From positions 3,009 to 35,470 of the forward strand of contig CALMOM010000148.1 of NCBI GenBank assembly GCA_937873305.1: a stretch of DNA of 32,462 nucleotides, read 5' to 3'. Source of the DNA: an uncultured Terriglobus sp. GTDB lineage: Bacteria; Acidobacteriota; Terriglobia; Terriglobales; Acidobacteriaceae. Position 1 is the first letter of the stretch. Every line of letters starts with the position of its first letter. Both the position numbers and the translations under genes were made by a program. The notes below the pieces were generated by a model. It saw nothing but the letters and a program-made list of their open reading frames with translations, searched no databases and had not been told where the DNA came from. Below are positions 26,949-29,431 of this stretch, one piece after another.

Positions 26949-28019
26949 TCAGTCGCTCGGAATCGCCGTTAGTTTGGCGCTTCTAGACGACGATGTGCCC
27001 GAGGTCTGGTCCATGTACCTTCGCCACCAGAGGGTATTGCGCGGCTCGCCGGTGAACTCCGTTGGCTCACCCGGCTCCGGCACCCACAGGGGCAAGCCTG
27101 CCTCGGCAGCCATCTCTGTCAGGCGCTCCGGCGGCTGAAACCAGTCGTGAAAGGCCAGGTTGAAGGTGCCCCAGTGAATGGGCATCAGCACCTTTGCCCG
27201 GAGGGCCTGTGCGGCCAGAACGGCGTTGTCCGGACCCATGTGGATGTCGGCCCACAGCGGGTCAAAGGCGCCGATTTCAAGGGTCGCCAGGTCGAATGGC
27301 CCGAACTGCTCGCCGATCTCACGAAAACCTGCATACAGTCCAGAGTCGGCCCCGTGGTAGACGTTATGCCCCCCGGTCCGGAGGACGAACGACGACCACA
27401 GCGTGGTGTACCGCTTCAGGCTCCTGCCCGAGAAGTGCCGCGCCGGCAAGGCTGTTAGCGTTAGCGGCGTCGGGCTGCTGGAAGGCACGGTTAACGTGTC
27501 CATCCAGTTCATCTCCTTAACCTTCGCCGCCGGAACGCCCCACCGTTGCAGGTGGCGGCCGACGCCTTCCGAGCAGATAAATAGCGGCGTCCGCTCCTGC
27601 AGCTGCGGGATAGCCGCGGCGTCCAGGTGGTCGTAGTGGTCGTGCGATAGCAGCACTGCGTCCAGCGGCGGCAGTTCGGCAATTGACAGCGGCGCAGGAA
27701 AGAAGCGAGCAGGACCAAAGCGCTGCGAAAACGACGCGCGCTTAGAGAAGACCGGGTCTATCAGCAGCGTGGTGCCGTCCATCTCCACCAGCAGCGAAGA
27801 ATGTCCGATGAGGGTAACGCGTAGGCCGCTTGCGGCTGGTGTCAGGAAGGCTCCGAGATCCGTGCGGAATGGCCCCAGTTGCCGGCGCGGCACACGCTCC
27901 TCTTTGCCGAATAGTAGCCTGCGAAAGATCGTAAGAAGGTGCTTGGTTGCACCCACCTCGGTGGGCACCGGGTTTTGGTACCGGCCGGTTTCATAGCGCG
28001 CGGGGCGCAGCAGTGACAT
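26949..28019 (-). CDS. Metallo-beta-lactamase fold hydrolase, NAPE-PLD/UlaG-like
   Basis: About 356 residues from ATG 28019 (MSLLRPARYETGRYQNPVPT); a longer frame to 28076 begins with TTG and is less likely. The N-terminal NPVPTE segment, IGHSSLLVEMDGTTLLIDPV and the metal motif SHDHYDHLD (His126, His128, Asp130, His131) are arranged as in N-acylphosphatidylethanolamine phospholipase D and UlaG-type lactonases. Later ligands are in YHGADSGLY and MPIHWGTFNLAFHDW. There is no signal peptide. Bacterial members are mostly uncharacterised; a phosphodiesterase or lipid-modifying role is a reasonable guess. It is 204 bp upstream of the glycosyltransferase on the same strand; that gap holds no gene I can support. 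Confidence 0.75.
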   Translation of the reverse strand: MSLLRPARYETGRYQNPVPTEVGATKHLLTIFRRLLFGKEERVPRRQLGPFRTDLGAFLTPAASGLRVTLIGHSSLLVEMDGTTLLIDPVFSKRASFSQRFGPARFFPAPLSIAELPPLDAVLLSHDHYDHLDAAAIPQLQERTPLFICSEGVGRHLQRWGVPAAKVKEMNWMDTLTVPSSSPTPLTLTALPARHFSGRSLKRYTTLWSSFVLRTGGHNVYHGADSGLYAGFREIGEQFGPFDLATLEIGAFDPLWADIHMGPDNAVLAAQALRAKVLMPIHWGTFNLAFHDWFQPPERLTEMAAEAGLPLWVPEPGEPTEFTGEPRNTLWWRRYMDQTSGTSSSRSAKLTAIPSD

Positions 28020-28082
28020 AGCCCGGTTTGGATGCGCGTCGACCGGGCGGAGTCGCGTTCTGTTCGTCACCTCCAACGCAGT

Positions 28083-28138
28083 GAAGGACCTGCTCTTGCC
28101 CCGGCAGCGGTGCTGCCCGACAGAAAAGCAGGTCCTTC
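28083..28138. repeat. Nested long palindrome of the GGTCCTTCG...CTCAGGATGACG extragenic type
   Basis: GAAGGACCTGCT (28083-28094) is the exact inverse of AGCAGGTCCTTC (28127-28138), and inside it GGCAGC (28103-28108) pairs with GCTGCC (28112-28117). The right arm runs into TCTCCGCTGTGCTCAGCTCAG and GATGACGATG (to ~28171), which I remember as a widely dispersed intergenic sequence in acidobacteria and some other phyla. The spacer 28020-28353 holds this and the smaller palindromes listed separately, and no gene that I can support. Confidence 0.7.
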
Positions 28139-28239
28139 GTCTCCGCTGTGCTCAGCTCAGGATGACGATGTGAATGGCAACTACTCAAGCCAAGTTTGAG
28201 ATGGCTTCAGCTGTTGACGTACGCTTAAGGCTGACCTCA

Positions 28240-28253
28240 GCGGCTAAAGCCGC
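28240..28253. repeat. Palindrome GCGGCTAAAGCCGC
   Basis: A 6-bp inverted repeat around AA, followed by GTCCTTA. It has the xGGCTAAAGCCx core of common acidobacterial spacer repeats. Confidence 0.6.
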
Positions 28254-28273
28254 GTCCTTACTCATTTGAATGT

Positions 28274-28293
28274 GGCACAGCTCAAGCTGTGCC
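28274..28293. repeat. Palindrome GGCACAGCTCAAGCTGTGCC
   Basis: A perfect 9-bp inverted repeat around CA, followed by CTTCCAAA. Its right part, CTCAAGCTGTGCCCT (28281-28295), recurs exactly at 28322-28336. Confidence 0.7.
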
Positions 28294-28321
28294 CTTCCAA
28301 ATTCCCAGACCACATCCGTAT

Positions 28322-28336
28322 CTCAAGCTGTGCCCT
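28322..28336. repeat. Half copy of the preceding palindrome
   Basis: CTCAAGCTGTGCCCT repeats 28281-28295 exactly, but its left arm (GGCACAG) is missing, so this is a decayed or partial unit 41 bp from the full one. Confidence 0.6.
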
Positions 28337-28343
28337 ATCGGAG

Positions 28344-28362
28344 CGGCCATTGTCTAAGGCCG
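28344..28362. repeat. Palindrome overlapping the lipoprotein gene end
   Basis: CGGCC (28344-28348) and GGCCG (28358-28362) bracket ATTGTCTAA. The right arm lies inside the last codons of the minus-strand lipoprotein gene, so the repeat supplies its stop codon and could serve as its terminator. Confidence 0.5.
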
Positions 28363-28962
28363 TGTCCGCGTGGGCACCTTCCAGCCGTCGTTGGTCAGTA
28401 CCAGCGTGGTCTGCGCGCTGTTGGTGGCCGCCAGAGCCGAGCTGAGCTGCGGAAAGGCGTTCTGCGTCTCCTGCGCCTGCGCCCAGTCCTTTACGTCGCC
28501 CAGCGTGTAGGTGTAGTTCACCGTAGTGGTCGCGCCCACATTGGTGCCCGCAGGTGTGTTGCTCACGATGTCCTTGACCTTGCGGTGCGCGAAGCAGAAG
28601 TTGCCGTAGCCCGGTTGGGTGGTGTCCGCGGTCCAGTTGCCGCGGCCCTTGTCCGAGAGGTCGTAGCTGTTGGCCTCTTTCTTTACGAGACCGAGCAGCT
28701 TCGATTTCTCGATCGGCGTGCGGGTCAGCAAGCCCTGGTCGACCAGGGCATCGAAGGGCTGCACCTTCTCTGCGTCGTCCTTGTCGTGCTGCTGCGGCAT
28801 CTGGATGGGCTGCTTGTACAGGCACTCTGGAAACTGGTCATAGTAGCTGTTGATGGCCGTTTTCAGGTTGCCGGTGTCATCCTTCTTCTTGTTGCAGCCG
28901 GTGGCTACCAGGGCCAGGGCGGCCACGGCTACGGTTCCAGTACGTAGTGCAGATGTCATCAT
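28354..28962 (-). CDS. Lipoprotein of unknown function
   Basis: A 202-residue protein from ATG 28962, preceded by GGAGAG at 9 bases; the next codon is also ATG. MMTSALRTGTVAVAALALVA followed by TGC-NKKK is a lipoprotein signal with the cysteine near residue 23, so it is probably anchored to a membrane facing the periplasm. The mature part contains INSYYDQFPECLYKQPIQMP, EKVQPFDALVDQGLLTRTPI and a Gly/Trp/Tyr-rich central part (KGRGNWTADTTQPGYGNFCF) with a second and third cysteine that might bond. The end (TTTVNYTYTLGDVKDWAQAQ, TLVLTNDGWKVPT) looks like the beta-sheet and helix of an NTF2-like or Ig-like fold. I do not recognise a named family. Its stop lies within a palindromic repeat. Confidence 0.7.
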   Translation of the reverse strand: MMTSALRTGTVAVAALALVATGCNKKKDDTGNLKTAINSYYDQFPECLYKQPIQMPQQHDKDDAEKVQPFDALVDQGLLTRTPIEKSKLLGLVKKEANSYDLSDKGRGNWTADTTQPGYGNFCFAHRKVKDIVSNTPAGTNVGATTTVNYTYTLGDVKDWAQAQETQNAFPQLSSALAATNSAQTTLVLTNDGWKVPTRTRP

Positions 28963-29086
28963 GTGCGCGGTCTCTCCATCGCGGCAGCAGGCTGCTCGCT
29001 GCGTGGTGAGATGCAGCGCCATGGCATATGCCGCCTATGCGACATTGATGAGTCCGCAGCACGATCTTGTTTGTTTGCAGGTGCAG

Positions 29087-29431
29087 CTACTTGCTGCAGG
29101 GCTTGCCGCCGTTGGCGCGGTCGCCCTCGGCCTTGGCTGCGTCCTCTGTCATGTATTTGCCGGCCTTGGTCTTGCCGTAGTAGGCGGTGCCTGGGCAGTG
29201 GTACACCTTGCTGCTGGTGTTGACCCATACCTGGCCGGGGCCGCCACCGGGTGCGGCGGCAACCTCTTTAAGTGACTTGCGCGCCGCCGCAGGTACCTTG
29301 GCCGACGGTGCGGGTGCGGCTGGAGCAGGAGCAGCGGGGCTGGCGGGTGCAGTTTGCGGGCTCTGCGCGTGCAGAGGCAGCAAACTGAACAGTGCAGCCA
29401 ACAGGAGAGCCGCGGGGGTGCGGAGCTTCAT
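29087..29431 (-). CDS. Small exported protein with VYHCPG...KPC domain
   Basis: A 114-residue protein from ATG 29431, with GAGGTC about 8 bases upstream. [20 protein letters not shown] then HAQ is a signal peptide. A low-complexity Ala/Pro linker (residues ~25-50) leads to a compact C-terminal domain: [40 protein letters not shown] and NGGKPCSK. The two cysteines and the histidine next to the first could bind a metal or form a disulfide. I recall similar short Ala/Pro-tethered domains (V-W-V-N-T-x-S-x-V-Y-H-x-P/C) in acidobacterial and proteobacterial proteins, without a known function. It lies 124 bp upstream of the lipoprotein gene on the same strand. Confidence 0.7.

Follow-up and report, generated by a model that had tools for sequence, protein, structure and literature searches.

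Several short palindromes crowd into one intergenic gap in the genome of an uncultured Terriglobus sp., which raises the question of whether they are separate repeats that came together or parts of a single structure. The window, by which we mean the whole stretch of 32,462 nucleotides that was analyzed, lies on contig C148 of a draft genome (G000) of 3.64 Mb in 223 contigs, estimated to be 93.8% complete. Flanking the cluster are a lipoprotein-like gene with no Pfam or NCBIfam match (28354-29022, minus strand) and a metallo-beta-lactamase-fold gene (26949-28076, minus strand). The window also encodes a small, secreted-looking protein at 29087-29431 (minus strand) with a weak match to the 'sunset' domain (23 bits, below the cut-off of 27). 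In a first-pass annotation, the cluster was described as five different palindromic units of REP type that attract one another. Our analysis indicates that the site is very probably an old insertion of an approximately 150-bp nonautonomous element of the RAYT (REP-associated Y1 tyrosine transposase) kind, whose left end has been lost in the window, next to a CGTC-like REP dimer of separate identity.

Four of the five units are present as they had been described: a nested 56-bp inverted repeat with arms at 28083-28097 and 28124-28138 (93% complementary), the palindrome GCGGCTAAAGCCGC at 28240-28253 (hairpin A, plus strand), the 20-bp palindrome GGCACAGCTCAAGCTGTGCC at 28274-28293 (hairpin B, plus strand), and a half copy of the latter, with 15 identical bases at 28281-28295 and 28322-28336. 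The fifth, CGGCC-N9-GGCCG at 28344-28362 (no strand assigned), spans the stop codon of the lipoprotein gene and exists in its letters only. It has no counterpart at that place in G209, the genome nearest to G000, despite identical residues at the protein end (stop codon TAG in the window, TAA in G209), and this sister locus thus rules it out as a REP. A further piece, a decayed hairpin A' with a core at about 28200-28234, had been overlooked. The units were also said to share an AAGC(Y)G core followed by CCTT. This holds after hairpin B, where CCTTCC is the conserved end of the element, and fails after hairpin A, where CCTT is part of a variable linker and is missing in other complete copies.

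Uniqueness in the genome, which would have spoken against a repeat family, was excluded by genome-wide counts. Hairpin A has nine exact sites in G000, and hairpin B, at up to three mismatches, has 19 forward and 20 reverse matches; the reversed-pattern control gave zero in both cases. At the same tolerance, B occurs once within the window against 0.02 expected. When one mismatch and a free center are allowed, the A palindrome gives 95 matches in G000 versus 82 for the control, which is barely above background, so the palindrome alone is weak evidence and its context counts. The 101-bp segment that holds the nested element (28075-28175) gives 25 BLAST matches in G000.

The REP-type character of these multicopy palindromes was borne out by a search for a RAYT gene, which found one in G000 with the same palindromes at both ends. 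This gene (C99:37706-38152) is the single Y1 transposase match in the genome and scores 117.1 bits against NF047646, the curated REP-associated tyrosine transposase model (cut-off, 80), and 20.8 bits against the IS200 model (cut-off, 55). Its product matches TnpArep 4er8 (E value, 2.8e-13) and keeps the HUH motif and the catalytic tyrosine, with H57, H59, Y115, and N119 invariant in an alignment of 28 sequences. The gene is flanked by inverted units that recur in the genome, B' then A' upstream and A then B downstream, such that hairpin A borders it on both sides with B-type hairpins outside, and the RAYT stop codon TAA lies inside hairpin A. RAYT relatives were detected at an E value of ≤0.001 in 174 of 200 genomes of the family. 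Among the matches listed from named records, the nearest come from MAGs of an Acidobacteriales member and of an uncultured Terriglobus, and the host was accordingly regarded as an acidobacterium.

Hairpins A and B had been regarded as different units; they are two hairpins of one unit, in fixed order and at fixed spacing. Thirty RAYT loci were read, comprising that of G000 and 29 relatives, the best matches of the family search, and their flanks mostly carry the same hairpin pair with differing stems. By the rule applied, an A-B unit is present in 40 of the 60 flanks, with loop centers 34 to 42 nt apart (mostly 35 to 39 nt). The spacing is 37 nt in the window and about 37 nt beside the RAYT genes of relatives. 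For RAYT loci on the minus strand, the upstream and downstream flank labels follow contig orientation, which is immaterial for units of inverted symmetry. A covariance model, R1, was built from 37 units taken from RAYT flanks of other species only. To arrive at this set from 40 units, two units of G000 were left out on purpose, together with one L075 unit whose second hairpin is another B. In G000, R1 finds 51 places at an E value of ≤1 and 46 at ≤0.01. The complete A-B unit of the window (28234-28301, minus strand), which consists of the foot CCTCA, hairpin A, a linker, hairpin B, and the end CCCTTCC, reaches 63.9 bits (E value, 8e-20 genome-wide and 7.2e-22 in the window).

Across the units, loops, feet, and spacing are conserved, and the stems vary with compensation. 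Paired cells make up 96% in the units versus 81% in shuffles, with nine pairs changed on both sides, although this count is partly circular because the units had been picked by pairing. A second comparison, designed to avoid such a choice, was based on the motif CTTNAG. Within 200 bp of a RAYT match, 83 of 108 CTTNAG places pair at four or more of the five flanking positions, compared to 7 of 84 places located more than 600 bp away, and the pairing places comprise 28 distinct arms. Of the 37 units, 26 have NNAG and 11 have NNGG as the four bases that precede B. The tetranucleotide GT[AG]G precedes B in 3 of the 37 units of relatives and was not found 5' of the hairpin in the window or in the units of the G000 RAYT gene, where GGAAG or GGAGG stands before B'. 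Fixed spacing, model matches, and the inverted pairs described below all contradict a set of five independent REP families.

The 46 R1 units of G000 fall into 15 inverted pairs and 16 singles. In 11 of the 15 pairs the units enclose a core of 14 to 16 bp, and 10 of these 11 are 148 to 153 bp long. Complete copies read B'-A'-core-A-B, four hairpins in inverted symmetry over about 150 bp, and agree in their ends, TTCGGAAGG...CCTTCCGA, as well as in a core close to GAGGTCNGCTT..AAGCNGACCTC. One complete copy folds as a single long hairpin (-56.8 kcal/mol; z score, -10.3). This layout equals that of the RAYT element with a short core in place of the gene, which marks the complete copies as a miniature, nonautonomous derivative.

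At the site in the window, the right half of the element is the complete A-B unit. In the left half, B' is missing, and a decayed A' hairpin with its foot (28200-28219, plus strand) is followed by the core TACGCTTAAGGCTGA (28220-28234, plus strand). R1 gives only a subthreshold match to this half (28169-28220; E value, 0.27), and its identity is therefore taken from the alignment with the sister genome. G209 holds a complete element at the orthologous site, with R1 units at L123:1047-1112 (plus strand) and L123:1126-1191 (minus strand), an intact A', and TACGCTCAAAGCTGA as the core. The place of the absent B' is filled in the window by the right half of the dimer that includes the nested element.

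Beyond B, G209 carries a tandem array of 13.4 copies of a 17-bp unit (L123:836-1065), in each of which the 3' arm of B is joined to the end of the element; this array is possibly a VNTR born from a REP end. The window keeps one half unit. The half B with element end at 28322-28341 (plus strand), recognized as a 15-nt direct repeat, is the remnant of such an array, which would have arisen later, perhaps when two AAGCT sequences, one in B and one immediately beyond the end of the element, allowed slippage. The copy in the window is most likely a relic that no longer moves, in the intergenic space downstream of the lipoprotein gene and upstream of the metallo-beta-lactamase-fold gene, and at present it most likely serves no specific function.

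The nested 56-bp element belongs to a different family, designated C, and is the central part of a dimer of inverted REPs that reads CGTCATCCTGAGC...AAGGACCTGC-core-GCAGGTCCTT...GCTCAGGATGACG. In the window, the left REP (28065-28095, minus strand, with its arm at 28083-28097) was delineated by comparison with other copies; it reads GCAGGTCCTTCACTGCG...GACG and is decayed at its outer end. The center (28096-28123, no strand assigned) has a small inverted repeat of its own, seen in the fold and at the same place in other copies. The right REP, GCAGGTCCTT...CTCAGGATGACGA (28124-28168, plus strand), is delineated by BLAST matches and by the sister alignment, in which it occupies the place of B' in G209. 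The segment 28067-28170 folds with a z score of -3.2, and 1 of 200 shuffles was as good. Of the 25 BLAST rows, 18 were compared, the others being overlapping rows of the opposite strand. By eye, most copies contain CGTCAT; the tail is CTGC, without CCA, and the stem is imperfect.

CGTC REPs are described as having a CGTC tag, AT at the start of the stem, a stem of 8 to 9 bp, and a CCA tail, and as lacking a dedicated transposase (PMC3733652). Family C resembles the CGTC-tagged dimers of that account in CGTC plus AT, in the inverted dimers, and in the absence of a transposase seen beside them, and it differs in the CTGC tail and the imperfect stem. Because the CCA tail is missing, we call it CGTC-like only. 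Section 6 of PMC3733652 does not mention Acidobacteria as carriers of this class. No RAYT for family C was found in G000, the sole RAYT there being of the A/B kind. Judged by its letters, the nested element would be a CGTC-like REP dimer separate from the A/B element.

To follow the element beyond G000, units and RAYT genes were counted in 19 genomes of the genus. All of them hold at least one unit, with numbers ranging from 1 to at least 150, and a RAYT match is present in 15 and above the cut-off in 13. Unit number does not strictly track RAYT: G210, with no RAYT match, holds 79 units, G095 has 20, G180 has 28, and G209 has 57 with a broken RAYT, and in G205 and G194 a RAYT is accompanied by one unit each. 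As a pattern of sequence occurrence, this distribution fits gain, spread, and loss. The G209 RAYT locus, located at two contig ends (one, L262, being the end of G209 contig C186), appears orthologous to that on C99 in G000. The 5' half of the gene has been replaced by other sequence, and the remainder has a one-base deletion, leaving the 3' part of the gene and one unit. Since 57 units persist, G209 represents a case of RAYT decay with units remaining.

Site by site, the elements at C132, C119, and C12 are common to G000 and G209. At C114 a complete element in G000 corresponds to a fragment with C-type units in G209, at C73 a decayed A/B element in G000 corresponds to a C-type dimer in G209, and at C25 a C dimer in G209 is absent from G000. 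One case of presence and absence was encountered near C119, where G209 has a further complete element that is absent from G000, with rearranged flanks. The remaining sites compared show an element common to both, C-type units instead, or unrelated sequence differences. Neither a clean empty site nor excision was seen, the search for empty sites having covered approximately 1.1 Mb of G209 (100 stretches); like the loose match between unit number and RAYT presence, this counts against the insertion reading.

A scan of named genomes yielded at least 464 confirmed RAYT relatives, and 80 of these loci were examined for R1 units within about 260 bp. Of the 56 acidobacterial loci, 37 have units on both sides, 8 on a single side, and 11 on neither, compared to both sides in 2 of the 24 loci labelled other than acidobacterial; this specificity is partly an effect of relatedness because the acidobacterial loci are the closer relatives. 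On a contig of a Rhodanobacteraceae MAG (L343:1074-1694), a RAYT gene has acidobacterial-type two-hairpin units on both sides, which reflects either a misbinned contig or a transfer.

It is unlikely that several independent REP families with mutual affinity gathered in one intergenic gap, as the proposed attraction would have it. For A and B, attraction is contradicted by their fixed order and spacing and by their joint presence at RAYT genes. Between the A/B element and family C, it is weak. C stands beside an A/B element at two places in G000, 59 bp from the A-B unit in the window (C148) and next to the element at C114, and the exchange at C73 points in the same direction. In a sample of G209, 3 of 17 A/B elements lie within 100 bp of a C cluster versus the 0.65 expected if elements were placed at random between genes (p = 0.026; at a distance of 600 bp, p = 0.056), but this enrichment is small and its sample partly selected, 23 of the 59 loci having been chosen for an earlier match on the contig. 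These 59 were taken from the 60 loci, out of 81 of G209, in which the two units at the orthologous site had been sought with R1. Intergenic crowding could explain it; 16 of the 17 elements are intergenic, and intergenic DNA makes up 17% of the sample by a crude ORF rule.

A low probability also attaches to capture alone, in which the RAYT gene would have acquired palindromes of a family already present and would not move them. The loose relation between unit number and RAYT presence in the 19 genomes would suit such a capture, but inverted units with different stems stand at both RAYT ends across acidobacterial genera, and the complete copies have the layout of the RAYT element minus its gene. 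It is very improbable that the hairpins are maintained by selection as a terminator of transcription or a regulatory RNA structure for the lipoprotein gene, even though they lie just 3' of this gene and fold better than shuffles (z score, -3.05). No terminator-like site coincides with the A-B unit (one was found in the region, versus 0.7 in shuffles), and no Rfam family comes near its gathering score; a terminator or known RNA was rejected on these grounds, as nothing rose above chance or the gathering score. Moreover, dozens of copies occur at unrelated loci, and the left half is decayed.

An inserted RAYT-kind element, the reading preferred here, is of a known kind (REPIN or acidobacterial TIRtron), and its two hairpins per end set it apart as a variant. 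REPINs and REPtrons are known with GTAG REPs (Bertels and Rainey 2011, PMC3116915; Nunvar et al. 2010, PMC2817692). As described in these papers, the A/B family forms inverted doublets that contain a conserved spacer and fold into a single hairpin, shows compensatory stem changes, and borders a RAYT with the same repeats; the window copy alone is incomplete. Unlike the REPINs described there, it has A plus B per end instead of one REP, and GT[AG]G occurs at the foot in just the 3 units mentioned above.

The TIRtron of Acidobacteria, whose transposase is termed TIRYT in PMC3733652 and PMC6006769, is portrayed as a Y1 transposase bordered by inverted repeats not of the GTAG type (PMC3733652). 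Some of these repeats are self-complementary and repeated in the genome, and T. saanensis, G. mallensis, K. versatilis, and A. capsulatum are named; for K. versatilis, a repeated TIR family is reported for one of three genes only (PMC3733652; Di Nocera et al. 2013). An acidobacterial RAYT of the TIRYT group with inverted, non-GTAG, two-hairpin ends is what we find here, matched to the TIRtron by description and not by the letters of the TIRs. In contrast to the TIRtron text of PMC3733652, the units here occur in large numbers throughout a genus and build miniature elements of four hairpins, and some of what is described here may already be present among the TIR sequences published there. A cluster of 'different' palindromes resolves into one defined mobile unit, and REPIN-like elements whose ends each carry two hairpins prove abundant beyond the well-studied gammaproteobacteria, in another phylum.

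By analogy with its family, the RAYT would bind single-stranded hairpins through foot and loop, cut beside them, and join the ends, from which it follows that the short element could have spread in trans. The guide sequence would be formed by the bases that adjoin B on its outer side, as in other REPtrons, in which the CT site to be cut is chosen under the guidance of the tetranucleotide that precedes the hairpin on its 5' side; with a CT substrate, selection in one group-3 system acted chiefly on the last two bases of this tetranucleotide (PMC8266576). Given this rule and the NNAG or NNGG before B, cleavage at CT close to the ends of the element can fairly be predicted. We propose more tentatively, as a possibility short of even odds, that acidobacterial RAYTs share a paired-hairpin end code, with an outer REP and an inner hairpin at a fixed spacing of about 37 nt, feet of NNAG or similar and TGAGG, and stems that may vary provided that pairing is kept. 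In that case, the transposase would read only the feet, the CTTNAG centers, and the spacing. If true, this would be a family-wide four-hairpin REPIN system, in contrast to the GTAG systems examined to date, which have single hairpins. Since the stems differ freely and feet, loop, and spacing stay the same, the family offers a natural experiment on recognition by a domesticated Y1 transposase.

In another genome, G128, three RAYT loci (L161, L175, and L185) share the RAYT segment at 82 to 89% identity, and the segment common to L161 and L175 runs roughly from one unit to the other. An adjoining segment of about 1.28 kb is 92 to 99.5% identical among the three loci, indicating that something else was recently copied beside them.
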